64,000 nucleotides of DNA from Vasconcelosia minhoensis LEGE 07310 (GTDB lineage: Bacteria; Cyanobacteriota; Cyanobacteriia; Phormidesmidales; Phormidesmidaceae), in NCBI RefSeq assembly GCF_015207255.1, contig NZ_JADEXG010000024.1, forward strand, positions 1-64,000, given 5' to 3'. Made by a program: the position numbers and the translations under genes. Under the pieces are notes generated by a model. It was given only the letters and a program-made list of their open reading frames with translations. It had not been told where the DNA came from and searched no databases. This document shows positions 47,760 through 64,000 of the stretch, piece after piece (positions within the stretch are counted from its first letter, which is position 1; each line of letters begins with the position of its first letter).

Positions 47760-48179
47760 ATGATCATTGTCGATACGGGTGCCTTTTTGGCACTTTTCAA
47801 CCAGTGTGATACCTACCATGCAACAGCTCGACAGGCCTTTGATAGATTCTCACAGCCTCTAATCACGACCTATCCAGTCATTACGGAAACCTGCTATTTG
47901 CTGATGAAGTGGGTCAATCAAACTGCCCAGCAGAGTTTTCTCAAAGCCTTGTGTCAGAGCGTGTTTGAGATTTTTCAGTTGGAGCGTCATCACTTAGGAC
48001 GGATGTCCCAGCTGATGGAGCAATATGCTGATCTGCCGATGGATTTGGCGGATGCTTCTTTGATTGTGCTAGCAGAACATTTAGGGCACGGGCGTATTTT
48101 GACCATTGATCGTAGAGACTTTGACGTCTATCGATGGGGGAACAGCAATCCCTTTCAAAATCTTCTGCTCAACACGTAG
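47760..48179 (+). CDS. PIN-domain toxin (VapC-like RNase)
   Basis: 139 residues. The PIN fold's acidic residues are visible: Asp5 in MIIVDTGAFLALFNQCD, Glu in PVITETCYLLMKW, and the D/D pair in MDLADASLIVLAEHLG and RILTIDRRDFDVYRWG. These bind Mg/Mn for RNA cleavage. It looks intact. It lies directly after its antitoxin and before a fragment of an S9 peptidase gene. Confidence 0.88.
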   Translation: MIIVDTGAFLALFNQCDTYHATARQAFDRFSQPLITTYPVITETCYLLMKWVNQTAQQSFLKALCQSVFEIFQLERHHLGRMSQLMEQYADLPMDLADASLIVLAEHLGHGRILTIDRRDFDVYRWGNSNPFQNLLLNT

Positions 48180-48300: not shown

Positions 48301-48522
48301 ATGAGCCATCAACTCACAATTGAACTCCCTGCTGACATCACGCTTCAGGAAGCAAAGTTTCTGCTTGCTGCTAAACTTTTCGAGACGGGTCGCCTTTCTT
48401 TAGGACAAGCGGCTGAGCTGTCTGCATATTCCAAATCCACCTTCATGGAGCTACTTGGAAAAACTGGCATACCAGTCTTTGATTATCCAGCAGAGGATCT
48501 AGAGCAGGAAATGCATCTTTGA
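48301..48522 (+). CDS. UPF0175-family antitoxin
   Basis: 73 residues, starting MSHQLTIELPADITLQEAKF. LLAAKLFETGRLSLGQAAEL and AYSKSTFMELLGKTGIPVFD form the UPF0175 helix-turn-helix. These small proteins are normally found directly before DUF3368 PIN-like toxins, as here: the stop overlaps the next gene by four bases. Confidence 0.8.
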   Translation: MSHQLTIELPADITLQEAKFLLAAKLFETGRLSLGQAAELSAYSKSTFMELLGKTGIPVFDYPAEDLEQEMHL

Positions 48523-48974
48523 CGGATAGCCGAATTGTGAGTAACAGCGCTGGTCTAATTGCTCTGGAACGCATTCAGCGGTTGGACCTCCTCCCTCGGG
48601 TGTATTCAACCTTATGGATTCCTCAGGCAGTTGAAGCTGAAATTGGCTTTGAAACCGACTGGCTACTGGTACAAACAGTTGAAAATCAGGCGCTCGTCGC
48701 CAACTTGAAAACTCAGGTCGGTGCAGGTGAGTCAGAAGCGATCGCCCTTGCTTTGGAAATAAAAAATATTCCTGTGCTGCTAGACGATAAAAAAGCTCGC
48801 CGGATTGCCAAGCAGCTAGGCCTTCAGGTTACAGGGACTGTGGGAATGCTGCTCAAAGCGAAGAAGCAGGGTATTGTTTCAGCTATCGAGCCCATTTTGG
48901 ATGCGCTGGAAAACGTTGATTTCCGGGTATCTTCTGAATTGCGGACGCTCGCTTTGGAATTAGCCAACGAATGA
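48519..48974 (+). CDS. DUF3368 PIN-like toxin
   Basis: 151 residues from a TTG at 48519. The start RIVSNSAGLIALERIQRLDL has Asn-Ser where PIN toxins often have Asp-Ser, so the first catalytic Asp may be changed. AGESEAIALALEIKNIPVLL and DDKKARRIAKQLGLQVTGTV are diagnostic of DUF3368, with the second acidic cluster intact. It is coupled to the UPF0175 antitoxin by a four-base overlap. Confidence 0.8.
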   Translation: MTDSRIVSNSAGLIALERIQRLDLLPRVYSTLWIPQAVEAEIGFETDWLLVQTVENQALVANLKTQVGAGESEAIALALEIKNIPVLLDDKKARRIAKQLGLQVTGTVGMLLKAKKQGIVSAIEPILDALENVDFRVSSELRTLALELANE

Positions 48975-49045: not shown

Positions 49046-49236
49046 GGAGGCTACACCACTTTAGCCGCGCTGACCTTTTGCGATTTGCTCAAGGCCGGGG
49101 CCAGATACTACGGCGTCAGCAATATAGTCAGCCTGGCCGAAGAACTTCACAGGTTCGAAGCGCCATATCTGGATAGCCTAGTAGGAGCGTACCCGGAGAA
49201 AAAGGAGCTGCATGAAGCGCGATCGCCAATCAACCA
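49046..49236 (+). pseudogene. fragment of an S9 peptidase gene (catalytic-domain part)
   Basis: The frame GGYTTLAALTFCDLLKAGAR, YYGVSNIVSLAEELHRFEAP and YLDSLVGAYPEKKELHEARS is parallel to residues from the nucleophile loop onward in the peptidase at 45469-47427, but the Ser of GxSxGG is lost upstream and similarity stops after SPINH. A TTG-started frame (49085-49306) covers it but is not a real gene. Confidence 0.78.
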
Positions 49237-49247
49237 CTCTGAATGGA

Positions 49248-49275
49248 CTCCGTTTCATCACGGAGAAAATTTTTT
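49248..49275 (+). terminator. rho-independent terminator upstream of the CRISPR locus
   Basis: 6-bp stem CTCCGT/ACGGAG with a six-base loop, followed by AAAATTTTTT. It insulates the cas regulator gene from the toxin-antitoxin block. Confidence 0.65.
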
Positions 49276-49296
49276 GCTGCCTCTGAATATCGTTTC

Positions 49297-49321
49297 AACC
49301 CGGTAAAGTTTTTTCCGGGTT
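49297..49321 (+). promoter_or_regulatory. inverted repeat upstream of the WYL regulator
   Basis: Perfect 7-bp arms AACCCGG and CCGGGTT flank an 11-base AT-rich centre, 38 bases before the regulator start. It could be an operator for autoregulation by the WYL protein or an RNA hairpin. No T-run follows it. Confidence 0.4.
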
Positions 49322-49359: not shown

Positions 49360-50352
49360 ATGTCACGTCACCTGGAAAGGCTACTTGCTATCGATGCGCT
49401 GCTGCGATCGCCCGAGCGACAGACTGCGCCCGCTATGGCTGCGGTGCTGGAAGTGAACGAACGCACTATCCGTAACGATATTGCGTTTCTGCGCGATCGC
49501 TACTCTGCCCCGGTTCGGTATAGCAAAACCAGAGGATTTCATTACACTGACAGCGATTGGCGACTGCCGAGTATTTCGCTTTCAAAAGGTGAGCTCTTTG
49601 CGCTCATGCTAGGCGCAAGGATGCTGGAAACTTACTCTGGCTCTGCCTATATTTCCGAACTCCGATCGGCAATCGAGCGCTTAGCAGAACGCCTGCCCGA
49701 GCAGACCTGGATCGACCTACAGCAGGTGGCAGACGAGCGCATTAGTTTTCGCTCAGGTGCTGAAACGAATTTAGACCCGGAAATTTGGCATGGCTTAGAG
49801 GTTGCTGCTCAGGCTTCTCAACAGGTTTGGATACGCTATTACACTGCCAGCCGGGATGCGTATTCAGAGCGAGCCGTTGATCCTTACCTGCTGCATATTT
49901 ATCGAGGCACGAACCCCTATCTCATCGGCTTTTGTCACAAGCGTCAGGAGGTTCGATGGTTTCGAGTAGATCGCATTCAAGAGCTACGTCAGCTCAATCA
50001 GGCATTTGTCCGCGATCCCAAGTTCAATGAAAAAGATCATATGGAAATGATCTTTCAGCATGAAGCGGGTGGCGTCCCGATGACGGTGCACATTTGGTTT
50101 GATGCGCCGACGGCTCCCTACATCCGCGAGCGCCGCTGGCATGGTTCTCAAAAATTGGCTGAGCAAGAAGATGGATCAGTCACTTTGCAAATGACGGTCC
50201 GTGGGCTAAACGACGTGAAGCGGTGGATCCTGGGATATGGTAAGGGTGCCAGGGTTTTAGGACCGCCAGCCTTACTGAATATGCTGAGAAACGAAATCCA
50301 GGACATGCAACAACAGTATTCCAACGAAATTCCAGTTAGAGAATCGAAATGA
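49360..50352 (+). CDS. WYL-domain transcriptional regulator of the cas operon
   Basis: 330 residues. The N-terminal helix-turn-helix lies in RLLAIDALLRSPERQTAPAM and VNERTIRNDIAFLRDRY. The central WYL domain is at about 140-230 (QQVWIRYYTASRDAYSERAV, YLIGFCHKRQEVRWFRVDRI), and a WCX C-terminal extension follows. WYL proteins next to CRISPR loci sense a nucleotide-type ligand or single-stranded nucleic acid and activate or repress cas genes. Its stop overlaps cas3 by four bases, so it is part of the operon. Confidence 0.88.
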   Translation: MSRHLERLLAIDALLRSPERQTAPAMAAVLEVNERTIRNDIAFLRDRYSAPVRYSKTRGFHYTDSDWRLPSISLSKGELFALMLGARMLETYSGSAYISELRSAIERLAERLPEQTWIDLQQVADERISFRSGAETNLDPEIWHGLEVAAQASQQVWIRYYTASRDAYSERAVDPYLLHIYRGTNPYLIGFCHKRQEVRWFRVDRIQELRQLNQAFVRDPKFNEKDHMEMIFQHEAGGVPMTVHIWFDAPTAPYIRERRWHGSQKLAEQEDGSVTLQMTVRGLNDVKRWILGYGKGARVLGPPALLNMLRNEIQDMQQQYSNEIPVRESK

Positions 50353-53066
50353 GTTCAGAAAGATTTTGGGCGAAGACAGGCAAAGGCGAGTTTCGAGAAG
50401 ACGGGCAGCCGGAGTACCATCCCGTCATTTGCCACCTGGCCGATACAGCGGCTGTGGCGATGGAAATTTTGAGAATCCACCTGAGTCCCCTGGCTCTGAA
50501 TCACCTGTCCCAAGGTTTAGGGCTCACGGGCGAATCCCTGATCCGCTTTTGCGGCTTCATGGCGGGTAGTCACGACCTGGGTAAAGTCAGTCCCGCCTTT
50601 CAGTTTCAGGTCAGCGAAGTGGGGAAGATTCTAGCTGGAGAAACCCTCTATGACTGCTGGTCATCTTTGCCCCGGGAACGGCAGATTGGCGATGCGCCTC
50701 ACGGTAGAATTACCGCAGCAACTCTGCCTGAGTTTTTAGTTGAAATAGGCTTGGGCGGCGACCTCTCAAAGCGCCATGCCAAAAAACTAGCTCGGCGGTT
50801 GGGCACAATCGTCGGCGGCCACCATGGCTTTTTTCCAGCTCAGCACGAGATTGACGCGCTAGATAGCGCCATTGCCGGAAATGATGAGCGTAGCCTCTGG
50901 CGACAGTATAGCCTGACCATTTTTCAACAGCTTCGAGACTTTGTTGGTCTCACTTCAGCCGACCTTCCCAGCCAATGCGACAACGCCGCCGCCATGATTT
51001 TGGCTGGGCTGACCACGGTATCGGACTGGATTGCCTCTAACCCTGACGCCGACTCCGGGTTTCCCTATGCCAATGACACGCCATTTGAGACCTACGCTGC
51101 CGAGCTTCCTAACAAAGCAAAAAATGCCCTGGCTAAGCAGGGATGGGGTCAGCCCGCGACCGGAAAACCTTTAGCTTTTACAGAATTATTTTCCTTTATC
51201 AGCGAGCCTCGCCCCTTACAGGAGGCGGCGATTCAGTTCACCGCCACCCTGACCCCACCTTGCCTGGTGATGGTAGAAGCCTCGATGGGGGAGGGCAAGA
51301 CCGAGGCGGCGCTGTATTTAGCCGACCATCTCCAACATCAGGCTGGGGCTGGAGGCTTCTATATCGGGCTACCCACCCAGGCCACCAGCAACGCCATGTT
51401 TAAGCGGATTCAGGACTTTTTACGGCAGCGATATCCGCAGAATGTGATCAATTTAACCCTCAGCCACTCAGCCGCTGCCCTGAAGGAAGACTATCAGAGT
51501 ACCGTCTGTCGGCTGGATCAGGTCTATGACCGAGAATCGGGAGTGGTCGCAAGCGAATGGCACACGGCCCGCAAACGTACGCTGCTCAGTCCCTACGGCG
51601 TTGGAACATTGGATCAGGGCCTGATGGGCGTCGTGCGATCGCGCCATCAGTTTGTTCGCCTCTTTGGTCTGGCAGGTCGCACCATCATTCTGGATGAAAT
51701 CCATGCCTATGACCTCTACACCAGCACGCTGCTGGAACGGTTCCTGGAATGGGCAGCGGTTCTGGGATCGCCTGTGATTGCCCTATCGGCTACTTTACCG
51801 GCCACGACCCGCCAAAGGCTTTTGACCGCTTACGCTAACGGCTGTGGACATTCTGCGCCGCCCTTACCGCCTGCGCCCTATCCCCGAATTACCGCCTTTG
51901 CCAGTGGGGAAGCGGTGGCTCAGTCATTTGCCGCATCCGATCATGTGCGGCGTTCCCTAGCCATTCGCTGGGCCAACGATCAGGAATGGCCTGAAACCTT
52001 GCAACAGGTATTGGCCGATGGGGGCTGTGCTGCGGTCATCTGCTCTACGGTTAACCGAGCGCAGGCCGTCTATCAGGGGCTTCAGGACTACTTTTCCGAG
52101 GAAGAGCTCGGTCTATTTCACGGACGCTTTCTATTCCAAGACCGAGAACGGATTGAGCAGGACTGTCTGAGTAAGTTTGGCAAAGGGCAGGATCAGCGAC
52201 CTCATCGATTTGTACTCGTCGCGACTCAGGTAATCGAGCAAAGTTTGGACGTAGACTTTGACCTGATGATTAGCGACCTCGCACCGATCGACCTGCTACT
52301 CCAGCGCTCTGGACGACTGCATCGCCATGTCCGAGACTGTCGTCCAGCCCAGCTACAAACGCCAACGCTTTGGATTATCGAGCCGACCTTGATGAAACAG
52401 AGTAAAGCTGACTTTGGCGATAGTGGCTATATCTATGACCGGCATGTGCTACTCAGAAGCTGGCTGGCGCTACGGCAGCGAGGCGCTATTCAGCTTCCTG
52501 AAGAAACTGATGACCTGATTGAGTCAGTCTATCACCTGGAAATGCCGATTCCAGAAGAACTCGACCCTACCCATGCCGATGATTGGCAAGCTTCCTTAGA
52601 GAAGTACAAGGTCGAAGAGGAGGAACGTAAACGGGCGATCGCAAACCAGGTAAAAGTGCCACCGCCCAGATCAGATGTTAAGCCTTCTGACTTTACTCGC
52701 CGGGGCGAAGAAGACGATGAGGGCGCGATCGCGGCCATGACCCGTCTGGGCGAACCCTCGGTGACGACTATCTTTTTGCAGCAAACCAAGGCTGGTCTGG
52801 TGTTTCCTAGCAGCCAGGACTCAGTGGACTTAAAAACCAGACCTAACTTAGCCCTGATCCGCAACCTCCTTGCCCACAGCACCCGCCTCTCTAAGCAGGG
52901 GCTAGTTCAAGCCTTACTGAGCCAGGAGAATCCTCCCAAGTGGACTTCTGCATTACTGCGAAACTGCCGATATGTAGAACTCAATGCCCAGGGAGTAGCT
53001 GTAGTCGGGGGTTGGCGGCTGACCCTGAACCCATTGCGAGGGGTGCTGATTGAAAAAGCGGAGTAG
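50349..53066 (+). CDS. cas3: Cas3 helicase-nuclease (type I-E)
   Basis: 905 residues, HD nuclease fused to SF2 helicase. The HD domain has His29 in YHPVICHLADTAAV, MAGSHDLGKVSPAF (His75-Asp76) and GGHHGFFPAQH. Helicase motifs: I VEASMGEGKTEAALYL, II ILDEIHAYD, III IALSATLP, and VI RSGRLHRH. Cas3 is recruited by target-bound Cascade, then unwinds and shreds DNA. It overlaps the regulator by four bases and precedes cse1 by 72 bases. All key motifs are present. Confidence 0.95.
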   Translation: MSSERFWAKTGKGEFREDGQPEYHPVICHLADTAAVAMEILRIHLSPLALNHLSQGLGLTGESLIRFCGFMAGSHDLGKVSPAFQFQVSEVGKILAGETLYDCWSSLPRERQIGDAPHGRITAATLPEFLVEIGLGGDLSKRHAKKLARRLGTIVGGHHGFFPAQHEIDALDSAIAGNDERSLWRQYSLTIFQQLRDFVGLTSADLPSQCDNAAAMILAGLTTVSDWIASNPDADSGFPYANDTPFETYAAELPNKAKNALAKQGWGQPATGKPLAFTELFSFISEPRPLQEAAIQFTATLTPPCLVMVEASMGEGKTEAALYLADHLQHQAGAGGFYIGLPTQATSNAMFKRIQDFLRQRYPQNVINLTLSHSAAALKEDYQSTVCRLDQVYDRESGVVASEWHTARKRTLLSPYGVGTLDQGLMGVVRSRHQFVRLFGLAGRTIILDEIHAYDLYTSTLLERFLEWAAVLGSPVIALSATLPATTRQRLLTAYANGCGHSAPPLPPAPYPRITAFASGEAVAQSFAASDHVRRSLAIRWANDQEWPETLQQVLADGGCAAVICSTVNRAQAVYQGLQDYFSEEELGLFHGRFLFQDRERIEQDCLSKFGKGQDQRPHRFVLVATQVIEQSLDVDFDLMISDLAPIDLLLQRSGRLHRHVRDCRPAQLQTPTLWIIEPTLMKQSKADFGDSGYIYDRHVLLRSWLALRQRGAIQLPEETDDLIESVYHLEMPIPEELDPTHADDWQASLEKYKVEEEERKRAIANQVKVPPPRSDVKPSDFTRRGEEDDEGAIAAMTRLGEPSVTTIFLQQTKAGLVFPSSQDSVDLKTRPNLALIRNLLAHSTRLSKQGLVQALLSQENPPKWTSALLRNCRYVELNAQGVAVVGGWRLTLNPLRGVLIEKAE

Positions 53067-53138: not shown

Positions 53139-54686
53139 ATGCCGTTCAACTTGACCGAAGAAGCCTGGATTCCCGTTGTAGGAAACGATTTCAAAGTCCG
53201 AGAAGTCTCACTGGTTGAACTATTTGACAATTGGGAAACCCTGCGCGAGATCCAGTCAGATAATCCACCCACAACACTGGCTCTTTATCGATTCCTACTC
53301 GCTATTCTGCATCGAGCTTATCAGGTGCCACGAAATGAGGAGCATTGGGAAGAAATTTTTGAGGATAACGGTGAAGAAGCAATTACATATCTACAAGACC
53401 GTGCCGACCGCTTCGATCTGCTCCATCCAGAACATCCCTTTATGCAAGACATGGCACTACCCATTGATAAAGCCGTGTCAGTCCACGCCATCCATACCAT
53501 GAGCACTTCCAAAGTATTCTCTCACGAGCATGAGTGGAGCGGCTACAGCCTCTCACTCCCAGAGGCAGCCCGTCTGTTAGTACGGCTTCAGGGGGTGGAT
53601 ATCACCAGTTTGCGGGCTTACTACGTGGGGCAAACTAAAGGCAATCGCTCTGCGGTCAATACGCCGACCATTAACGCAGCTAATGTATTAGTTCAAGGAT
53701 CAACTCTGAAACAAACCCTGCTGTTCAACCTGATGCGTTACGATCCAAACTCTGAGATTTCTGGCGCTATAAAAGGCGAAGATATACCTACTTGGGAAAC
53801 CAGTTACGCAGGTAGGCCGACTAAATCTATTCCTCAGGGCTACATTAGCTATCTGACCTTCCCGTGGCGCAGACTCAAGCTATTTGTTGAAAATAATAGC
53901 GTTAGCCAAATCGCGATTACTATGGGCAACTCCTTGCCAGACAAGGTAACGCCTCAGCAGTGGGAATGCGGCATTGCCTACCGGGATGATCGACCGGTGC
54001 GGATGTCATTAAATAGGCAGCTTTGGCGAGATGTTGATAGCTTTCTCCTCTCTGCCGAAAAGAATCACCGTCCCCGTATTATTGACTGGCTTGCTGAGCT
54101 GCGATCAGAAGAACTGGTCGAAGATATCGTCACGCTCCAAATTGTGGGCTTTAGTGCCGATAAGGCTAAACCGCTGGGCTGGAGTACGCAGCAGTTTTCA
54201 GCCCCAAAAGCTTATATCGTCGATACAGAATTAGCTACTACGCTAAAGCTAGCCATTAATACTGCTGAAGAACACCAGCAAATCTTCCGTTCCTTCCGGG
54301 GGAGCCCTTACTATGCCCTGGCAGAGATCCTCAAACACGGCGATGCAGGCAGCTTAGCCCAAGCCCTAGACGGCGAATCTCGCTACTGGGCTACGCTTGA
54401 TCGCGAGTTTCCCAAACTGCTCTATGCATTGCCCCAGGACACCGAAACGGGTGCAGACGGCATCACCCGGTACGGTCATCGGCAACTTCCCGCCTGGACC
54501 CAGACCGTTCAGAACGCGGCCAGGGATGCTTTTACAGAGTCAATTCAGTCAATCCGCAACTACCAGGCGCGGGCCGCCGCTCTGCGATCGCTTAGCTACC
54601 AACTAGCCAAGTTTCGAGGTGAGACAGGCCAAAAAACTGGGAAAGATAAGGCATCTGAGAAATTTCCCCAGGCCAAGGCGAGCTAA
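53139..54686 (+). CDS. cse1: Cse1/CasA, large subunit of type I-E Cascade
   Basis: 515 residues. Cse1 (Cas8e) recognises the PAM and recruits Cas3. The start MPFNLTEEAWIPV is diagnostic of CasA, followed by HPEHPFMQDMALPIDKAVSV (the L1-loop region) and SAVNTPTINAANVLVQGSTL. The C-terminal four-helix bundle is at about 380-500. Ribosome binding site AGAAGGTG is 6 bases before the ATG. It lies 23 bases before cse2. Confidence 0.92.
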   Translation: MPFNLTEEAWIPVVGNDFKVREVSLVELFDNWETLREIQSDNPPTTLALYRFLLAILHRAYQVPRNEEHWEEIFEDNGEEAITYLQDRADRFDLLHPEHPFMQDMALPIDKAVSVHAIHTMSTSKVFSHEHEWSGYSLSLPEAARLLVRLQGVDITSLRAYYVGQTKGNRSAVNTPTINAANVLVQGSTLKQTLLFNLMRYDPNSEISGAIKGEDIPTWETSYAGRPTKSIPQGYISYLTFPWRRLKLFVENNSVSQIAITMGNSLPDKVTPQQWECGIAYRDDRPVRMSLNRQLWRDVDSFLLSAEKNHRPRIIDWLAELRSEELVEDIVTLQIVGFSADKAKPLGWSTQQFSAPKAYIVDTELATTLKLAINTAEEHQQIFRSFRGSPYYALAEILKHGDAGSLAQALDGESRYWATLDREFPKLLYALPQDTETGADGITRYGHRQLPAWTQTVQNAARDAFTESIQSIRNYQARAAALRSLSYQLAKFRGETGQKTGKDKASEKFPQAKAS

Positions 54687-54709: not shown

Positions 54710-55261
54710 ATGACAACCTCAACTTCCAGACTCGCACCCGCTGAACGAGAGACAAAATTTCTAGAGTCTGTTCAGCAGCAGACCCAAAACGACAGCGGTG
54801 CCAAAGCTATCCTCAAACGGGCTCTGACGGATGAGCCCAGACATCTACGGGCCGCCTATCCGCTGGTATTGCCCTACTTGGGCGGCATTCAGTATCACCA
54901 GGATGAATGGATCTTTGTCGCCTGCCTGTCTGCTTACTATCCCCAAGGGCTGCATCGGGAAAACCGACAAACCTTTGGTCACAGTGCTCGCCGTTTAACC
55001 GGCGAAGGCAGTTCTAAGGGAGCCGACCGCCGCTTTCGCGCTCTGCTAGATACTTCTCTAGAAGATTTGCGATCGCCCCTCTCGGCCCTGGTTCGCCTGA
55101 TGAAATCAAAGGATATTTCCATTGACTACCCCCAGCTGCTAGCAGACCTCTGCCGCTGGGAGCACCCCGATCAGTACATCCAAGACAAATGGGCAAGAGC
55201 ATTTTGGGGTGCGCCATCTAGCCAACAAGAAGAGCAGCCGAGCCAGAATAATGATGACTAA
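54710..55261 (+). CDS. cse2: Cse2/CasB, small subunit of type I-E Cascade
   Basis: 183 residues, an all-helical protein that binds the crRNA and non-target strand inside Cascade as a dimer. Basic segments HSARRLTGEGSSKGADRRFR and LRSPLSALVRLMKSKDISID are typical. The C-terminal tail (SSQQEEQPSQNNDD) is acidic/polar. It is followed not by cas7 but by a hicBA toxin-antitoxin pair. Confidence 0.9.
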   Translation: MTTSTSRLAPAERETKFLESVQQQTQNDSGAKAILKRALTDEPRHLRAAYPLVLPYLGGIQYHQDEWIFVACLSAYYPQGLHRENRQTFGHSARRLTGEGSSKGADRRFRALLDTSLEDLRSPLSALVRLMKSKDISIDYPQLLADLCRWEHPDQYIQDKWARAFWGAPSSQQEEQPSQNNDD

Positions 55262-55264
55262 AAT

Positions 55265-55280
55265 TAGTGAATACTCACTA
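55265..55280 (+). promoter_or_regulatory. palindrome upstream of hicB (candidate operator)
   Basis: TAGTGAATACTCACTA is a perfect inverted repeat with 6-bp arms and a four-base centre. It lies between the cse2 stop and the hicB start, 16 bases before the ATG, overlapping the likely promoter. Confidence 0.5.
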
Positions 55281-55296
55281 TTCAAGGAGATGAAAA

Positions 55297-55518
55297 ATGC
55301 ATCAGCTGTCTGTCGTGATTGAAAAAGATGAGCTTGGCTACTATGCCTACTGCCCAGCGCTAGAAGGCTGTCAAACTCAGGGCGATTCAATGGAAGAGGT
55401 GCAAATCAATATCAAGGAAGCAATTTCTTTGTATCTGTCAACTCTCTCGCAAGTTGAGAAGGAGGAAATTTTTAGCCGAGAGCTGACTGCAGTTGTGATG
55501 GAGGTACAGGTTGCCTAA
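55297..55518 (+). CDS. hicB: HicB-type antitoxin within the cas operon
   Basis: 73 residues, matching short HicB antitoxins. MHQLSVVIEKDELGYYAYCP, ALEGCQTQGDSMEEVQINIK and EAISLYLSTL form the partial RNase-H-like fold that blocks HicA. A strong ribosome binding site AAGGAG precedes the ATG. It overlaps hicA by eight bases. The unusual antitoxin-first order (hicBA) is common in cyanobacteria. Its place between cse2 and cas7 is not part of standard type I-E loci. Confidence 0.9.
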   Translation: MHQLSVVIEKDELGYYAYCPALEGCQTQGDSMEEVQINIKEAISLYLSTLSQVEKEEIFSRELTAVVMEVQVA

Positions 55519-55714
55519 ACAACCTAGACTTACGGCCTCTGAAGCAGAAACACTCGTACTCAAAGCGGGTTTTCAGCTGCTGCAAAGTGCGGGCAGCCAT
55601 CGAATTTATGGAAAAGACCGGCTCAGGGTAGTCATTCCTTTCCACTCTGCTAAGATTCTGCATCCCAAAATTGTCAAACAAGTTCTGAAAGCTATCAAGG
55701 CTGATGAATCTTGA
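55511..55714 (+). CDS. hicA: HicA-type mRNA interferase toxin within the cas operon
   Basis: 67 residues from a TTG at 55511. The double-stranded-RNA-binding-like fold of HicA is marked by LKAGFQLLQSAGSHRIYGKD with the catalytic His (GSHRIY) and VVIPFHSAKILHPKIVKQVL. HicA cleaves mRNA and tmRNA unless bound by HicB. It appears intact. It is followed by a second short palindrome and then cas7. Confidence 0.9.
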   Translation: MPKQPRLTASEAETLVLKAGFQLLQSAGSHRIYGKDRLRVVIPFHSAKILHPKIVKQVLKAIKADES

Positions 55715-55725
55715 AGTATTTACTT
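55714..55725 (+). promoter_or_regulatory. palindrome between hicA and cas7
   Basis: AAGTATTTACTT is a perfect 5-bp inverted repeat with a two-base centre, starting at the last base of the hicA stop codon and 41 bases before cas7. It may be a regulatory site or half of one. Confidence 0.3.
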
Positions 55726-55766
55726 AAGTCATTTCAACCCAATCATACCGAAGAGGAAAATCAACT

Positions 55767-56912
55767 ATGCAACTCGAAATTCACATTCTACAAAGCTTTC
55801 CCCCCGCCAACCTAAACCGGGACGAGAACGGCATGCCAAAATCTACGGTGTTCGGCGGTCGCCCCCGAGCTCGGATTTCTAGCCAGTGTCAGAAGCGGGC
55901 AATTCGTCTGTTTTATCAGGACTATTCCAACCTTGCACCAGAACAATTTGCCGCTCGCTCTCGGTCCTGGCTGCCTGAATTGAAAAAGCTGCTGGTTGAT
56001 CAGGGCATTGCCGAGGCTCAGGCTGAAGCAGCCGCCCGCTTAGCCTTAGAAGATGGGCTCAAGCTCAAGCTCGATGAAAAGACAGGGGAGTCGAAAACGA
56101 TCGTGTTTCTGGGCCGGACAGAGATAGCCGCGATCGCGAATATCCTCATCAGCAATTGGAACACGATTGAGCCAGCACTCTCTGGAGACAGTCCCCAGCT
56201 GCCTGCAAAAGATCCCAACATTGCCAAAGTCATTGAGAAAGCGCTGGTAGATACGGGTAAGCCGGGCGATGTTGCCCTGTTCGGGCGCATGATGGCCTCT
56301 CTGCCCACCGTTAACGTGGATGCCGCTGTGCAAATGGCCCATGCTATCAGCGTTAACAAACTTCAGCAGGAGTTCGACTTCTTCACCGCAGTGGATGATC
56401 TCGGATCCAGTGAAGATACCGGCGCTGACCATATGGGTGAGACGGGCTACAACAGCTCTACCTACTACCGCTTCAGCGTCCTGGATACTGAACAGCTGAA
56501 GCGAAACCTGGGGGCTAGCGATGAGCAGGCGGCCAGTGTGGCAATGGCGTTTGCAGAAGCGTTTGTTAAAGCGATTCCCACCGGGCACCAAAATGGGTTT
56601 GCCGCTCATAGCCGACCAGCTGCGGTACTGGCCGTTGTCCGCCAGGGCCAGCCTATTTCACTGGTAGACGCCTTTGAAGATCCGGTTGCGCCTAGAGGCG
56701 GTAAGAGTTTGTTAGAAAATGCGGTCTTTAAGCTAGACGAGCACTGGGCAGAGCTGAGCAAAATGTACGGTGAAAAGTCTGTCGCCTTTAAGGGAATTGT
56801 CACCCGCACTCAGCTGGCCCAGCAGCTCAAGCATCTTGCCGACTGCGAACTGCCTGCGGTCGATGAGCTGCTCAAAGACGCGATCGCAGCCGCATTCTCC
56901 CAAGGTGAATAA
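55767..56912 (+). CDS. cas7: Cas7e (Cse4/CasC), backbone of type I-E Cascade
   Basis: 381 residues. Six Cas7 copies form the helical backbone that holds the crRNA. MQLEIHILQSFPPANLNRDE is the diagnostic start. GRPRARISSQCQKRAIRLFY, DDLGSSEDTGADHMGETGYN and STYYRFSVLDTEQLKRNLG follow. The ribosome binding site is GAGGAAAA. It is the first cas gene after the hicBA pair, 52 bases away. One base separates its stop from the cas5 start. Confidence 0.95.
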   Translation: MQLEIHILQSFPPANLNRDENGMPKSTVFGGRPRARISSQCQKRAIRLFYQDYSNLAPEQFAARSRSWLPELKKLLVDQGIAEAQAEAAARLALEDGLKLKLDEKTGESKTIVFLGRTEIAAIANILISNWNTIEPALSGDSPQLPAKDPNIAKVIEKALVDTGKPGDVALFGRMMASLPTVNVDAAVQMAHAISVNKLQQEFDFFTAVDDLGSSEDTGADHMGETGYNSSTYYRFSVLDTEQLKRNLGASDEQAASVAMAFAEAFVKAIPTGHQNGFAAHSRPAAVLAVVRQGQPISLVDAFEDPVAPRGGKSLLENAVFKLDEHWAELSKMYGEKSVAFKGIVTRTQLAQQLKHLADCELPAVDELLKDAIAAAFSQGE

Positions 56913-56913
56913 G

Positions 56914-57561
56914 ATGCCTACTCTCCTACTCCGCATGCGGGCACCGATGATGAGCTGGGGCGACCACAGCCGATTTACAAATCGGGATACCCGCCGAGAA
57001 CCAACTAAATCTGCTGTGATTGGGCTCCTCTGTGCCGCACTGGGCCGCCCTCGTTGGGAGCCGGTCGAGGATTTGACTGCCCTCAAAATGGGGGTGAGGG
57101 TTAATCAGGAAGGAACCGTCCAATGTGATTATCACACCATCATGGATAGCATTAGACCTAATGGAAAGAAGGTCAAAACGGAACTGAGCTGGCGCTATTA
57201 CGTGGCCGATGCCGACTATCTGGTGGGGCTGGAGGGGAATCACCTGCTGCTCGAAACCCTAGATACGGCTCTGCAATCGCCGACCTGGCAGCTTTACTTT
57301 GGCCGCAAAAGTTTTGTGCCTAGCTGCCCAATTCAGGTTGGCATTGTGGAGCAGCCGCTGCTCGCAGCCCTAGAGCAGCCAATTCACCGTAAGCGCACTT
57401 TCACTCGCGAACAGCCAGATCGCCTGCGCTGTGTTGTCGAGGTGCCAGACAGTCTGGACGTACGGCAGGACGTGCCCCTCGACTGGCAAAAGCGGCTGTT
57501 CGGTCGCCGCTGTGTAGACACTCACTTCATCAATACTGAGCTATGTATCTCTCAAAATTAG
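56914..57561 (+). CDS. cas5: Cas5e (CasD) of type I-E Cascade
   Basis: 215 residues from the ATG at 56914, one base after cas7. A longer upstream frame exists but overlaps cas7. MPTLLLRMRAPMMSWGDHSR is the family-typical start; FTNRDTRREPTKSAVIGLLC contains the conserved Thr/Arg that grips the crRNA 5' handle. Cas5 caps the 5' end of the crRNA next to Cse1. It overlaps cas6e by 19 bases. Confidence 0.93.
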   Translation: MPTLLLRMRAPMMSWGDHSRFTNRDTRREPTKSAVIGLLCAALGRPRWEPVEDLTALKMGVRVNQEGTVQCDYHTIMDSIRPNGKKVKTELSWRYYVADADYLVGLEGNHLLLETLDTALQSPTWQLYFGRKSFVPSCPIQVGIVEQPLLAALEQPIHRKRTFTREQPDRLRCVVEVPDSLDVRQDVPLDWQKRLFGRRCVDTHFINTELCISQN

Positions 57562-58163
57562 TCCTGAATCGACGCCATCCCAAAGTCCAAACCGATTTGA
57601 GCAACGCCCATAAACTGCATCAGCGAATCATGCATGGGTTCCCTGACGAGGAGCCAGATCGTCCGCGTGAGAACTGGCAAATTCTGTTTCGCCAGGAGCC
57701 CGATAACGACGTGGTGTTAGTGCAGTCAGAGATTGAGCCTGACTGGTCGAAGCTTCCAGAAGGATATTTGAGCGACCATGCCGTAAAGTCAGTGGATTTT
57801 GATGCGGCTCAACTAGGGCCGGGACAACTTTTACAGTTTCGGCTCAAGGCTAACCCGAGCAAGCGCGATCAGAAAACCAGAAAGACCATTGGCCTCTTTC
57901 GTCAGGCGGATCAGCTGGCCTGGCTAGAACGGCAGGCCAGCCGCTGCGGCTTTAAGCTTCATGGGGTCAATGTCATCCCTTCGCCTAACGTATTTGGCCT
58001 CAAGGATAAAGGTGCTGCGCCGATCCGAATTACGACGGCGCTGTATCAGGGAATTCTAGAAGTGACTGAACCCAGTCAGTTTCAGCAGATGCTACAGCAG
58101 GGCATTGGGCGCGGAAAATCCTACGGCTGTGGCCTACTGTCGATTGCTCGGGTTCAACCTTAG
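57543..58163 (+). CDS. cas6e: Cas6e (Cse3/CasE) crRNA-processing endonuclease
   Basis: 206 residues with two ferredoxin-like domains. MYLSKLVLNRRHPKVQTDLS and NAHKLHQRIMHGFPDE hold the His and Tyr of the active site; the C-terminal GIGRGKSYGCGLLSIARV is the glycine-rich loop. It cleaves the repeat RNA at the base of its hairpin and stays bound to the crRNA 3' end. The repeat here forms the stem CCCCACGCCTGTGGGG, suitable for this enzyme. Confidence 0.94.
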   Translation: MYLSKLVLNRRHPKVQTDLSNAHKLHQRIMHGFPDEEPDRPRENWQILFRQEPDNDVVLVQSEIEPDWSKLPEGYLSDHAVKSVDFDAAQLGPGQLLQFRLKANPSKRDQKTRKTIGLFRQADQLAWLERQASRCGFKLHGVNVIPSPNVFGLKDKGAAPIRITTALYQGILEVTEPSQFQQMLQQGIGRGKSYGCGLLSIARVQP

Positions 58164-58187: not shown

Positions 58188-59099
58188 ATGTCTAGATTAC
58201 GCACTCTGCCCAAGGCCCGCGATCGCATTAGCTTTTTGTACTTTGAGCATTGCCGGATCGAACAGGATGATCGCGCGATCGCAATTTTCAAAGACAAAAG
58301 CAAGTTCTTCGTTCCCTGCGCGGCTATTTCTACGCTGCTGCTAGGGCCAGGAACGTCGATCACCCATGCTGCCATCAAAACCCTAGCTGACAATGTCTGC
58401 GAGGTGCAGTGGGTAGGGCAGGATCTGACGCGCTTTTACGCTAGCGGGCGCAGTGGGGCTAGCAATGCCAGGCGTCTTATTCATCAGGCGACGCTATGGG
58501 CCGATCCCATCCAGCGATTAGCAGTGGTCAGGCGAATGTATACCTTTCGCTTCGATGAACCGCTCAGCGAAGATTTAACACTTCAGCAAATTCGAGGGTT
58601 GGAAGGGGTGCGCGTGCGGACGATGTACCAACGCTGGAGTAAGGAGACCGGTGTTGAGTGGAAGGGCCGTAATTATAAGCAGGAAAACTGGGACGATGCT
58701 AACCCTATCAACCAAGCCCTGTCTATTGCTAACACCTGCCTCTATGCCGTGTGTCAGGCTGCGCTGAATTCAGTAGGCTATTCCCCAGCCCTCGGATTTA
58801 TTCATACCGGAAAACCGCTGTCATTCGTTTATGACGTTGCGGATATGTATAAGGCGGAAACAACCATTCCGGCTGCTTTTGAGGCCGCTGCGGAAACATA
58901 TTTTGACCTCGATAGGGTCGTTCGCCGTAAATGCCGAGATAGGTTCAATGACTATCGCCTGATGCATCGCCTGGTTCAGGATATTGACAAGGTTTTAAGC
59001 TTTGGTCATGAGGATGAAGCGGAACCAATCTGCTTCCTGTGGGATGACGTTTTGGAGTCGGTGGAAGGCGGAAAAAATTGGTCCGATAAGGAGGGCTAA
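58188..59099 (+). CDS. cas1: Cas1 integrase (type I-E)
   Basis: 303 residues. Cas1 with Cas2 inserts new spacers. YFEHCRIEQDDRAIAIFKDK is in the N-terminal beta domain. The metal site involves Glu in QIRGLEGVRVRTMYQ, His in PALGFIHTGKPLSFVYDVAD and Asp in the same segment (YDVADMYK). Acidic and His ligands are all present. It follows cas6e by 24 bases and its TAA abuts the cas2 ATG. Confidence 0.95.
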   Translation: MSRLRTLPKARDRISFLYFEHCRIEQDDRAIAIFKDKSKFFVPCAAISTLLLGPGTSITHAAIKTLADNVCEVQWVGQDLTRFYASGRSGASNARRLIHQATLWADPIQRLAVVRRMYTFRFDEPLSEDLTLQQIRGLEGVRVRTMYQRWSKETGVEWKGRNYKQENWDDANPINQALSIANTCLYAVCQAALNSVGYSPALGFIHTGKPLSFVYDVADMYKAETTIPAAFEAAAETYFDLDRVVRRKCRDRFNDYRLMHRLVQDIDKVLSFGHEDEAEPICFLWDDVLESVEGGKNWSDKEG

Positions 59100-59372
59100 A
59101 TGGTGGTATTCATTCTCGAAAATGCTAAGCCTGCCCTGAGAGGAGAGCTGAGCCGCTGGCTGTTTGAGATCAAGGCAGGAGTTTTTGCTGGCCGTATTTC
59201 TGCTTTGGTTCGAGATGAGCTATGGGAGCTGATTGAGCAGAAACTTGGAAAAGGCTCTGCCGTCATGCTCTATTCACAGCGGAATGAGCAAGGCTTCGAT
59301 GCCCGAATGCTTGGAAATCCCTCTAGGGCTTTAGTAGACATAGAGGGTGTACTACTGGTAAAAGTTCAATAG
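59100..59372 (+). CDS. cas2: Cas2 (type I-E)
   Basis: 90 residues. MVVFILENAKPALRGELSRW and LFEIKAGVFAGRISALVRDE are typical of the I-E Cas2, and NEQGFDARMLGNPSRALVDI matches the C-terminal half. It forms the bridge between two Cas1 dimers. Its stop at 59370-59372 is only 19 bases before the first CRISPR repeat. Confidence 0.95.
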   Translation: MVVFILENAKPALRGELSRWLFEIKAGVFAGRISALVRDELWELIEQKLGKGSAVMLYSQRNEQGFDARMLGNPSRALVDIEGVLLVKVQ

Positions 59373-59391: not shown

Positions 59392-62300
59392 GCTGTCCCC
59401 ACGCCTGTGGGGGTGAACCCTATTACGTTCGTCGGAACCAAATTCAAAGCAAACGCTGTCCCCACGCCTGTGGGGGTGAACCGAATTGGGACAGACAGCG
59501 TGCCCCGACCGTCGTATGCTGTCCCCACGCCTGTGGGGGTGAACCGGATCCGATACCCAACCCGCCCGAAGAGTACGTTGGCTGTCCCCACGCCTGTGGG
59601 GGTGAACCGGCAGGCCACTGACTATCAGGTCAAAACACGCTGCTGCTGTCCCCACGCCTGTGGGGGTGAACCGTTATGGAAGAAACACTTTTGCTTGAGC
59701 AAAACATCGCTGTCCCCACGCCTGTGGGGGTGAACCTCTTACATCCAAGGCCAACGCAGCAGTTCTAGACGGCTGTCCCCACGCCTGTGGGGGTGAACCG
59801 TTGTTTATGAAGGACGTGTGTCTAAGAAGACTTTGCTGTCCCCACGCCTGTGGGGGTGAACCGTAACGTACGCGAATACTGGTAGACAATGGGACGAGCT
59901 GTCCCCACGCCTGTGGGGGTGAACCAGCCCGGCGGGGAATTCAGCGAAGGGGAATATTACGCTGTCCCCACGCCTGTGGGGGTGAACCGTCCGGTCATAC
60001 ACTTTCCAGCTCACTGATGCCGGCGCTGTCCCCACGCCTGTGGGGGTGAACCGGACATCCCGAGCGGCGAACATGAAACCGGGGCCGGCTGTCCCCACGC
60101 CTGTGGGGGTGAACCGATGTGTCCACCCAAAGCATGTAGTCTTTTGGGTTGCTGTCCCCACGCCTGTGGGGGTGAACCGGGGCTACTAAGCACCATGACC
60201 AGCGCCACCCCTGAGCTGTCCCCACGCCTGTGGGGGTGAACCGAATCACTGGCAGCAAGCCTAGACCTCGAGCAGAGCTGTCCCCACGCCTGTGGGGGTG
60301 AACCGCATGAATGCCCTATCCAATCTAGCTGAGATTTCGCTGTCCCCACGCCTGTGGGGGTGAACCGCGGCTAGCGGCAGGCGCTATTACCGGCGTGGCT
60401 AGCTGTCCCCACGCCTGTGGGGGTGAACCGGGTACAAGTCCTTGGTAATTCCTGGTCGATACCCGCTGTCCCCACGCCTGTGGGGGTGAACCGTTGTGGT
60501 TAGCCAGATTCAGATTCTTGTCGATAGGCTGTCCCCACGCCTGTGGGGGTGAACCGAGCTGGTCAAGCTGACCGGTGTAATGGCGGTTAAGCTGTCCCCA
60601 CGCCTGTGGGGGTGAACCTTATTTCTATTCGGTCTTTCATCCATGCCGACACCCGCTGTCCCCACGCCTGTGGGGGTGAACCGAGAAGCATCCCGACTAC
60701 TCTACAGACTGGCCCACGCTGTCCCCACGCCTGTGGGGGTGAACCGCATAGGGCTAGGGAATGGGCTTGCCCATACATCGCTGTCCCCACGCCTGTGGGG
60801 GTGAACCGTCATGGGAGTGGAGTCCTGAATTGGAGGAGTATGCTGTCCCCACGCCTGTGGGGGTGAACCGCGATCGAGCCGTTACCGCCATTGCTTTTCT
60901 TGCCGCTGTCCCCACGCCTGTGGGGGTGAACCGAATTCGTCTTCAGCTACTAACATACGCCCGGACGCTGTCCCCACGCCTGTGGGGGTGAACCGATGGC
61001 CTAGCCACATTTGAACTTGGTTATCAGGGGCTGTCCCCACGCCTGTGGGGGTGAACCGATTACGGCGCGGGATGACCGGGATACAGGGCAGTGCTGTCCC
61101 CACGCCTGTGGGGGTGAACCGCTCTTAGCCGGTGGAAGACAGAGCCCATGGTTGGCTGTCCCCACGCCTGTGGGGGTGAACCGGCTATTCGCAAAGCCCA
61201 GAAACGATTTGGAAAAGGCTGTCCCCACGCCTGTGGGGGTGAACCGGCATATGTCGAGCCACTAGAAGCAAAATTGGAAGCTGTCCCCACGCCTGTGGGG
61301 GTGAACCGCCCGCGACTTACTTAAATCGGTGCGCGGAAATACGCTGTCCCCACGCCTGTGGGGGTGAACCGCTATTAGAAAGGATTGGTGAATACGAGGA
61401 CATCCGCTGTCCCCACGCCTGTGGGGGTGAACCGGGTGATGCTTCCCGCCCTAAACGCTTGCAGCATTCGCTGTCCCCACGCCTGTGGGGGTGAACCGCG
61501 AACTAGCAAACGACGCAGGAATCGTAATGTTAGCTGTCCCCACGCCTGTGGGGGTGAACCGACCTAAGTAAACAATTGTCTACCCAGGCCCCTATCGCTG
61601 TCCCCACGCCTGTGGGGGTGAACCGACTCAAGGACAGTGGGCGGCATTCAAACGGACTCGCTGTCCCCACGCCTGTGGGGGTGAACCAGAGTTTGAAAGC
61701 AGTTTTGAGAGCTTTGAAGGCCGCTGTCCCCACGCCTGTGGGGGTGAACCGGAGGTAGCGAATAATGGTAGCCCTAAAACCCGTTGCTGTCCCCACGCCT
61801 GTGGGGGTGAACCGGAAAGGGAGAAATCGATGTAAGCCCGTGCGACGCTGTCCCCACGCCTGTGGGGGTGAACCGCACGTCGCCCCTACTCCCGAACCGT
61901 CGAAGGTCGCTGTCCCCACGCCTGTGGGGGTGAACCGTTGGGGGGAAATGGTATGTGATGGTTTCAAAGAAGCTGTCCCCACGCCTGTGGGGGTGAACCG
62001 TAGTCACAGAGATAGCCCAGACGCTGGTAGAGCAGCTGTCCCCACGCCTGTGGGGGTGAACCGCATTCCTTCGTAGACGGTAGGAGGGCGAGCTGTACGC
62101 TGTCCCCACGCCTGTGGGGGTGAACCGTTTTCTCCGACTTGTACTGCCCCTTCTAAGGTTGCGCTGTCCCCACGCCTGTGGGGGTGAACCAGAGCGCGAC
62201 GTATGGGCATCAATGGGGCGTCAGCAGCTGTCCCCACGCCTGTGGGGGTGAACCGCGTAACCGGTTTAGCCGGGCGGTTGCCGCTGCTTGCTGTCCCCAC

Positions 62301-63628
62301 GCCTGTGGGGGTGAACCGTCGTACTCCTGAGGTTCGGTGGTCTGGTCTTCTAGCTGTCCCCACGCCTGTGGGGGTGAACCGCCTTTAGCCCACAGCTCAT
62401 AAAGGCATTTTCGGCGCTGTCCCCACGCCTGTGGGGGTGAACCGGGTGGCTATCTTTGCCTTGCCGACTGGCAGTAGGCTGTCCCCACGCCTGTGGGGGT
62501 GAACCGCTATAAGTGTCTTCAACGGTTACGGCTTCAATCCGCTGTCCCCACGCCTGTGGGGGTGAACCGATTCTAGGACTCCAGCTGGTAGAGTTGGGTA
62601 GCGCTGTCCCCACGCCTGTGGGGGTGAACCGTTGCCGACGGCCAGGACGACCACGAAATCGACGCGCTGTCCCCACGCCTGTGGGGGTGAACCGCTTGCA
62701 CCAGGGTCGGCAGCGCACCCAATACGACGCTGTCCCCACGCCTGTGGGGGTGAACCCGATGATGGTGACGAAAAGCAGTTAGAGTTTCTTGCGCTGTCCC
62801 CACGCCTGTGGGGGTGAACCGAACCCGTTGAGGTCACCCCCGCATGAAATAATCAGCTGTCCCCACGCCTGTGGGGGTGAACCGGTCTGCTGACTCAAGA
62901 TGACGCCGCCAAGATTAGCTGTCCCCACGCCTGTGGGGGTGAACCGGTCCATATCCCCACCCCCGAACCCTAATATTCAGCTGTCCCCACGCCTGTGGGG
63001 GTGAACCGTTAAACGCCCCGATGGCTGGCGCTACCGGATGGCGCTGTCCCCACGCCTGTGGGGGTGAACCGTCGTCCTACATTGAGCTAGTAGACGCGGT
63101 CGGCACGCTGTCCCCACGCCTGTGGGGGTGAACCGCCATGGGGTGTTGGGTGCAAAAGGAAACTAACTCAGCTGTCCCCACGCCTGTGGGGGTGAACCGC
63201 CGCAGCCAGCGGCCCACCGTACAGCGAGATACGGCTGTCCCCACGCCTGTGGGGGTGAACCGCGTATCCTCCCAGGTAGGCCAATGACGCTAGAGACGCT
63301 GTCCCCACGCCTGTGGGGGTGAACCGTCCCCGGCGATGTCCGATAGGACGTTTTTGTCAAGCTGTCCCCACGCCTGTGGGGGTGAACCTTATTATCATCG
63401 AGCTGCGCCTGACTGAAGCCGAGCTGTCCCCACGCCTGTGGGGGTGAACCGTTTACGTGACCGGCGTTGGGGGCGAAAATGGTTGGCTGTCCCCACGCCT
63501 GTGGGGGTGAACCGCGTACTAAGACCCAACCCATACCTTATCTTTTAGCTGTCCCCACGCCTGTGGGGGTGAACCGGCGGATTGTCTCGGGTCAGAAAAA
63601 TGACATAGAGGCTGTCCCCACGCCTGTG
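59392..63628 (+). CRISPR. type I-E CRISPR array, 68 repeats and 67 spacers
   Basis: Repeats of 28-29 bp begin GCTGTCCCCACGCC and end GGGGGTGAACCG; the last G varies (C, T or A in repeats 1, 6, 9, 21, 38, 45, 54 and 64). I counted starts from 59392 to 63611, with spacing 61-64 bases and mean 63, giving spacers of about 32-35 bases. The stem CCCCAC..GTGGGG and the 3' handle GTGAACC match the orientation of the E. coli repeat, so transcription runs rightward from the cas2 side. Repeats 1-67 are almost identical; repeat 68 keeps only its first 18 bases. No spacer duplicates were noticed by eye. Confidence 0.98.
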
Positions 63629-64000
63629 AGTGTTAAATGTCAAGGCCGTAGCGGTGACGTGACAGTCAGTTGTCGTGATGAGTGACATTTGGTAGAGACT
63701 ACAAAGACTCATCGTGAGACTCATCGAATACAAGTACTGGGTGGCATCAGCGTCAGACGGCAGCCAGTGATCAAAATGACACTGCGTGATCAGTTAAAGA
63801 AATCGGGTGCATGAGGGCATTCTCTGCCGTGCTAGTCTTTGTTTCGAGTAGTAGCTGCCTGCTGACGGTAGCTTTTGGCCTTGATTTCAAAGATGACAGC
63901 ATGATGAACGAGGCAGTCAACGGCGGCCACGGTCATCATTGAGTCAGGGAAGATGCTATCCCACTGACTGAACGGCTGATTGGCCGTAATCAGTAAGCGC
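63629..64000 (-). mobile_element. IS21-family element, right part outside the window
   Basis: The element begins where repeat 68 breaks off (63629-63631, TGTTAAATGTCA). Internal copies of its end motif occur as AGTGACATTT (63681-63690) and AAAATGACACT (around 63775), plus a TGATCA pair, in keeping with the multiple terminal repeats of IS21 elements. The istB gene lies at 63832 onward on the minus strand. The other end and istA are beyond 64000. Confidence 0.65.
63832..64000 (-). CDS. istB: IstB helper ATPase of an IS21-family element (partial)
   Basis: The last 55 codons are visible, reading RLLITANQPFSQWDSIFPDS, MMTVAAVDCLVHHAVIFEIK and AKSYRQQAATTRNKD before TAG at 63832. This is the IstB C-terminus (family pattern TTNxxFxxWxxxFxD, then AxxDRLxHH and SYR). 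IstB is an AAA+ protein that selects the target and activates the IstA transposase. The 5' part is outside the window. The Arg usual in AVDRLVHH is Cys here. Confidence 0.85.
   Translation of the reverse strand, partial: RLLITANQPFSQWDSIFPDSMMTVAAVDCLVHHAVIFEIKAKSYRQQAATTRNKD

Follow-up and report, generated by a model that had tools for sequence, protein, structure and literature searches.

Toxins tied to CRISPR-Cas systems have been described in several forms. CreTA, a CRISPR-regulated RNA toxin-antitoxin (TA) of types I-B and I-F, is a TA unit within the cas locus and is suspected to act as a guard (PMC8501985, PMC10097628). CrePA links a protein toxin, CreP, to CRISPR-Cas of type I; a crRNA-like guide represses this toxin, for which there is no protein antitoxin (PMC12737573). 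The hypothesis of immunity-suicide coupling predicts toxins associated with CRISPR operons, and the corresponding survey states that immunity loci seem to lack typical antitoxins (PMC3506569). CRISPR operons are easily lost; how they are kept, and whether this involves suicide fallbacks, is the question at stake.

Class-2 hicBA modules are protein TA pairs. According to PMC10865869, hicB precedes an overlapping hicA, HicB comprises 60–90 residues and lacks a DNA-binding domain, HicA comprises 60–85 residues and is proposed to act in anti-phage defence, and HicAB classes 1 and 2 had seen no experimental study. The pair analyzed here shares the gene order, the protein sizes, the overlap and the missing DNA-binding domain. 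It differs in being embedded in a Cascade operon, at the junction of cse2 and cas7 (cse2|cas7); the passages of PMC10865869 that were consulted mention CRISPR in general terms only. The pair belongs to an ordinary TA family and occupies an unusual and recurrent place.

Results

The hicBA pair resides in a complete type I-E operon

The window, i.e. the whole analyzed stretch of 64,000 nucleotides, contains a complete type I-E CRISPR-Cas operon on the plus strand. At its head lies a gene for a WYL/WCX transcription factor (49360..50352; PF13280, PF25583 and the PADLOC WYL CAS-associated models). It is followed by cas3 (50349..53066; Cas3 HD, helicase and C-terminal domains), cse1 (casA/cas8e; 53139..54686; TIGR02547, 334.7 bits) and cse2 (casB; 54710..55261; TIGR02548, 79.6 bits). 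Downstream of the TA pair follow cas7 (cse4/casC; 55767..56912; TIGR01869, 306 bits), cas5 (56914..57561; PF09704, 143.7 bits), cas6e (cse3; 57543..58163; TIGR01907, 97.9 bits), cas1 (58188..59099; TIGR03638, 367.9 bits) and cas2e (59100..59372; TIGR01873, 81.6 bits). The array (59392..63640, plus strand), delineated from the sequence, the repeat count and a pattern search of the window's own genome, consists of 67 intact repeats, 66 spacers and one degenerate terminal repeat. The latter (63611-63640), gctgtccccacgcctgtgagtgttaaatg, indicates the far array end.

Several neighboring features were recorded in the same stretch. A C-terminal-like fragment (46900-47250) of a peptidase gene (45469-47427) occurs again at 49085-49306, just before the WYL gene, and two PIN-type toxin gene units (47760-48179 and 48301-48974) lie between both peptidase-like copies; this arrangement, recognized by eye, is possibly an insertion scar. 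The second unit is a UPF0175-DUF3368 pair matching the PADLOC candidate defence system PDC-S70. Farther upstream (33978-37712), a replicative DNA helicase-like protein of 1244 residues apparently carries two intein-like insertions, likewise noted by eye.

As originally predicted, an intact hicB-hicA pair lies between cse2 and cas7 on the same strand as the cas genes and leaves both flanking genes unbroken, which is confirmed by the coordinates and by Pfam. The gene hicB (55297..55518, plus strand) encodes 73 residues and scores 30.0 bits against PF15919 (cut-off 27); hicA (55511..55714, plus strand) starts with TTG, encodes 67 residues and scores 42.5 bits against PF07927 (cut-off 27). The end of hicB and the start of hicA overlap by 8 nt (TTGCCTAA). 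The strong ribosome binding sites that had been predicted are present as Shine-Dalgarno-like motifs, AAGGAG before hicB and GGAGG before hicA.

The AlphaFold model of HicB has a pLDDT of 91.5; its best PDB match is 2yzt, followed by the HicB antitoxins 4p78 and 6g1c. Judged by this model, HicB is a bare core lacking a DNA-binding domain, as stated for class-2 HicBs in PMC10865869. The HicA model (pLDDT 87.3) has the order helix, three strands, helix (alpha-beta-beta-beta-alpha) and reaches TM values of 0.72 to 1whz and 0.70 to HicA of B. pseudomallei (6g26). In an alignment of 15 HicA homologues, S29, H30, I32 and Y33 are invariant. The TTG start within the end of hicB is common to the homologues found by tblastn, where the first residue reads L; toxin synthesis should therefore stay low. 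With a short HicB upstream of hicA and overlapping genes, the pair has the layout of a class-2 hicBA type II TA module.

TA pairs recur at the cse2|cas7 junction

A close type I-E cas7 was detected in only three out of 386 genomes of a phylum sample. A scan of genome contigs and a class sample of 390 cyanobacteria yielded 24 genomes of this type I-E clade, 23 of them with a readable cse2|cas7 junction. The cyanobacterial clade carrying such TA pairs is a rare branch. The survey of these relatives found hicBA at the identical junction in six other species. The premise that cse2 and cas7 are normally adjacent also holds for this clade: the genes are directly joined in 12 of the 23 scorable genomes, and nearly so in a 13th, G422, which retains a 23-nt relic of DUF2283 (21/23 identical positions; none of 60 shuffles was as good).

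Seven of the 23 junctions contain hicB, namely three intact pairs, one pair with a frameshifted hicA, and three wrecks. The intact pairs belong to the window genome, to Acaryochloridaceae cyanobacterium RU_4_10 (G559, L013/L027) and to G443 (L080). In G280 (L079), an intact hicB and the frameshifted hicA are accompanied by an extra DUF4258-DUF2283 pair. The wrecks comprise DUF2283, a DUF2281-PemK pair and a truncated hicB in Petrachloros mirabilis (G472, L015), remnants of the PemK pair and of hicB in G449 (L075), and a hicB remnant fused to DUF2283 in G593 (L018). Three further junctions (G406, G448 and G477) carry a DUF4258-DUF2283 pair and no hicB, with DUF4258 apparently frameshifted in G406. 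Taken together, a TA module or its clear remains occupy 10 of the 23 junctions, the DUF2283 relic being found at an 11th, and a working TA is absent from 13. The families assigned to these other pairs were checked; the match of the PemK partner to DUF2281 is below the Pfam cut-off. In G472 (L015 5604-6000) and G449 (junction of L075), similar repeat-like DNA interrupts hicB at approximately the same residue, which suggests a shared old insertion.

TA genes occur at other junctions of these operons as well. An antisense BrnT-BrnA pair is located at cas3|cse1 in the relatives G598, G541, G388 and G591, and an antisense HicB at cas6|cas1 in G598, G464, G472 and G280; a RelE/ParE-like pair, recognized by eye, was seen at cas6|cas1 of G280 only. 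All insertions are confined to the looser junctions cas3|cse1, cse2|cas7 and cas6|cas1, none being found at tight ones; the cse1|cse2 gaps are roomy too, yet contain no TA. The two junctions flanking csc2 in 30 cyanobacterial type I-D loci served as a control, and no TA gene was found in any of them (0/30); these junctions instead held two transposase-like genes and a gene for 202 residues. The difference between the type I-E junction and type I-D corresponds to a Fisher value of 6e-5, which ignores relatedness and so treats related loci as if they were independent. A TA was likewise absent from the junction in four loci of Streptomyces and in two distant type I-E loci of the phylum. In several type I-D loci, one of them in the window's own genome, the gene for 202 residues is flanked by csc3 and csc2 (L104 730-1338 in cas-sense; L093 793-1401).

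Origin and age of the junction hicBA genes

In a tree of HicB and HicA, all seven junction hicBs and one orphan (G451, L028) are separated from 14 other cyanobacterial hicBAs with a support of 99/98. This grouping argues for essentially one old acquisition, and repeated independent captures are not favoured. When the CRISPR-borne copies were held together, the AU test gave p 0.09 because of the orphan L028, and exact monophyly falls short of being shown. On the Cascade tree the occurrence of hicB is scattered and requires at least five changes of state, such that old exchange between type I-E loci may have contributed. The simplest reading of this distribution is one gain followed by several losses. 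For cse2 and cas1-cas2, G280 (L079) and G472 (L015) differ far more than for cse1, cas7 and cas5, which points to an exchange of modules inside the operons.

A comparison of the window genome (G000) with G559 yielded dN 0.077 and dS of about 1.9 for hicB, dN 0.078 and a saturated pS of 0.85 for hicA, and dN 0.186 for cas7. Thus, synonymous sites of hicBA are about as saturated as those of the cas genes, and the protein change of HicB and HicA is below that of Cas7. These values point to an old resident under purifying selection, both genes having apparently been constrained over roughly the period in which the flanking genes diverged. A recent transfer of hicBA between loci was rejected due to the near saturation of synonymous sites, as in the cas genes. 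A viral source was not adopted either; only three viral contigs had HicA relatives, with identities of at most 60%. According to the original prediction, occurrence in this strain only would mark the pair as a passenger insertion. With six other species carrying hicBA, and with the signs of age, selection and near-single origin, this is not the situation encountered.

The TA genes are closely linked to the Cascade genes

In the relatives, the first TA gene touches or nearly touches cse2. A four-base ATGA overlap including the cse2 stop codon joins cse2 and hicB in G443, and the two genes are 2 nt apart in G559. The same ATGA overlap links cse2 to DUF4258 in G280, G406 and G448, and cse2 to DUF2283 in G472; in G477, the overlap reads GTGA. 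In the window, the gap between cse2 and hicB measures 35 nt and contains a good ribosome-binding site. Promoter-like and terminator-like sites were sought on the plus strand of the window's cse2|cas7 junction and not found. Considering these two lines of evidence, it is natural to infer that hicBA is co-transcribed with the Cascade genes and, in the relatives, translationally coupled to them. The ATGA overlaps and the 2-nt gap of the relatives leave little or no intergenic room for a promoter, in keeping with the proposal that hicB is supplied by transcription running through the operon.

The cas genes remain where hicA is broken (G280, G472, G449 and G593). This retention, and the 13 relatives without a working pair, indicate that the module is dispensable. 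In G477 (L078 5900-7431), only fragments of cse2 and cas7 are left of the type I-E operon, located between uppS-like and aconitase-like genes and flanking a DUF4258-DUF2283 pair that is still open. This pair has outlived the operon and hence did not save it. Its survival is what a module would show that serves its own protection first and, for the DUF4258-DUF2283 pair, argues against a toxin strictly dependent on Cascade. Natural losses such as this one show that an interference operon can at least be lost.

Operators, promoters and CRISPR-derived guides

The pair had been thought to be framed by two perfect palindromes. The upstream element (55265..55280, assigned to no strand) is an imperfect inverted repeat, TAGTGA-ATAC-TCACTA, with 6-bp arms and a 4-nt loop; about 4% of shuffles of the 35-nt gap contain one as good. 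The downstream element (55714-55725) reads AAGTA-TT-TACTT with 5-bp arms, and its first base is part of the hicA stop codon; a search of 55715-55766 for inverted repeats whose arms comprise at least five bases found none. Neither repeat is conserved in the relatives: G559 offers no room, the genes overlap in G443, and the sequence is different in G280. Being imperfect and not conserved, the palindromes were rejected as operators. Likewise, their binding by HicB, which consists of the 73-residue core only, finds no support, nor does a separate promoter brought in by the pair, given the plus strand of the junction described above.

The idea that Cascade or its crRNA controls the supply of hicB found no support. 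The best match to a degenerate CRISPR repeat (psi-repeat) near hicBA comprised 15 of 29 positions and equalled that of shuffles. Ectopic repeats were not found in the window's own genome outside its two arrays, and the spacers of the window array, the only ones compared, had no 13-nt match to the junction. Three 13-mer spacer matches fall at other places of the window, including one in cse2, and this number is expected by chance. Furthermore, hicBA is present in G451 (L028), a genome in which this type I-E cas7 was not found. Neither a crRNA-like antitoxin with degenerate repeats nor, among the spacers of the window array, a guide partially matching the toxin promoter was detected, and control of the CreTA or CrePA type is therefore not supported for hicBA.

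A different element was observed in five relatives and is absent from the window. Two degenerate repeats and a pseudo-spacer lie between cas3 and cse1 (cas-sense coordinates L008 3436-3557, L009 3455-3593, L073 4861-4982, L079 4219-4349 and L010 3216-3352; L073 and L079 were reoriented). The pseudo-spacer matches 12–14 of 15 positions, position 6 being ignored, of a site 40–58 nt upstream that overlaps a -35-like box and has an AAG PAM in five of five cases. These psi-arrays resemble a CreR-like repressor and are candidates for Cascade-guided autorepression. In three of the five relatives (L008 3077-3452, L009 3110-3471 and L073 4503-4877, cas-sense), the Cascade target lies about 50–70 nt upstream of the divergent brnT start codon; these three may possibly possess a CRISPR-repressed BrnT-BrnA pair.

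Discussion

Possible function of the embedded pair

We regard hicBA, with due reserve, as probably an addiction module embedded in the operon. Class-2 hicBA would have entered cse2|cas7 once, early in the history of the clade, and its later history would be mainly one of inheritance along with the operon, interrupted by many losses. Transcribed within the cas mRNA, with its first gene translationally coupled to cse2 in the relatives, the pair would yield a HicB that neutralizes HicA by direct binding, the conserved TTG start keeping HicA scarce. Antitoxin would then be supplied only as long as the Cascade operon is transcribed and translated, so that deletion, silencing or host shut-off of the segment should set free the HicA RNase, the more stable partner. 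The first role would be that of an addiction cassette for its own operon segment, possibly combined with growth arrest as a fallback during phage-induced host shut-off.

The main rival sees hicBA as an abortive-infection layer of type I-E that a phage or an anti-CRISPR, by perturbing the operon, would co-induce or unbalance, and that was selected for this effect and not for its own retention. The signs that hicBA has long resided in a defence operon and evolved under purifying selection, the presence of several TA families in these operons and the anti-phage role proposed for HicA in PMC10865869 are in line with it; the frequent decay of the toxin next to intact cas genes is not, no sensing element was found, and we consider it unlikely. 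Decay and loss would be expected of a neutral passenger, i.e. of TA modules that land at an insertion-tolerant junction, disappear slowly and have no effect on CRISPR: 13 of 23 junctions are without a working TA, several contain remnants, and insertions are limited to the looser junctions. However, toxin and antitoxin stayed intact while synonymous sites became saturated, with dN below that of Cas7, the near-single origin does not resemble repeated random landing, and the cse1|cse2 gaps, roomy as well, hold no TA, which makes a passenger rather improbable.

Two other explanations assign a specific control function to the locus, and we give both very little credence. Repression of hicA by Cascade and a crRNA-like guide, with release of the toxin upon loss of Cascade, has precedents in other subtypes (PMC8501985, PMC12737573) and a parallel in the self-targeting psi-arrays at cas3|cse1 of relatives. 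It conflicts with a psi-repeat match no better than in shuffles, the lack of ectopic repeats outside the two arrays and of a spacer match to the junction, the occurrence of hicBA in G451, and the fact that HicA has its own protein antitoxin. Equally hard to credit is a regulatory insert, whose promoter or operator shifts the levels of Cas7-5-6-1-2 versus Cas3-Cse1-Cse2. The inverted repeat in the 35-nt gap and the WYL regulator at the operon head might be cited in its favour, but the repeat is not conserved, HicB is predicted to lack a DNA-binding domain, plus-strand promoter- or terminator-like sites were not found, and the overlapping genes of the relatives leave a promoter no room outside cse2.

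An extension of the addiction reading, which we put forward as doubtful, is that cse2|cas7 of cyanobacterial type I-E operons might be a dedicated slot for translationally coupled protein TA pairs (hicBA, DUF4258-DUF2283 and DUF2281-PemK). The cell would sense the loss or shut-off of Cascade via the antitoxin supply, and the slot would be a guide-free protein counterpart of CreTA.

Comparison with known systems

With CreTA, the junction pair shares the position of a TA unit in the cas locus and the suspected role of a guard; in contrast, its toxin and antitoxin are both proteins, and no creA-like psi-repeat or guide was found near it (PMC8501985, PMC10097628). With CrePA, it has in common a protein toxin linked to CRISPR-Cas of type I, but HicA is paired with HicB, whereas CreP is repressed by its guide (PMC12737573). 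Toxins associated with CRISPR operons are what immunity-suicide coupling predicts; unlike the loci of that survey, complete TA pairs reside here inside the operon (PMC3506569). As far as the papers searched show, the embedding of a TA pair in a Cascade operon has not been described. The pairs are joined to the Cascade operon by overlapping codons and form a natural series that ranges from intact via half-broken to lost modules, which makes the question of retention directly testable. Protein TA pairs in a Cascade operon thus stand in contrast to the guide-RNA toxin guards of other subtypes.
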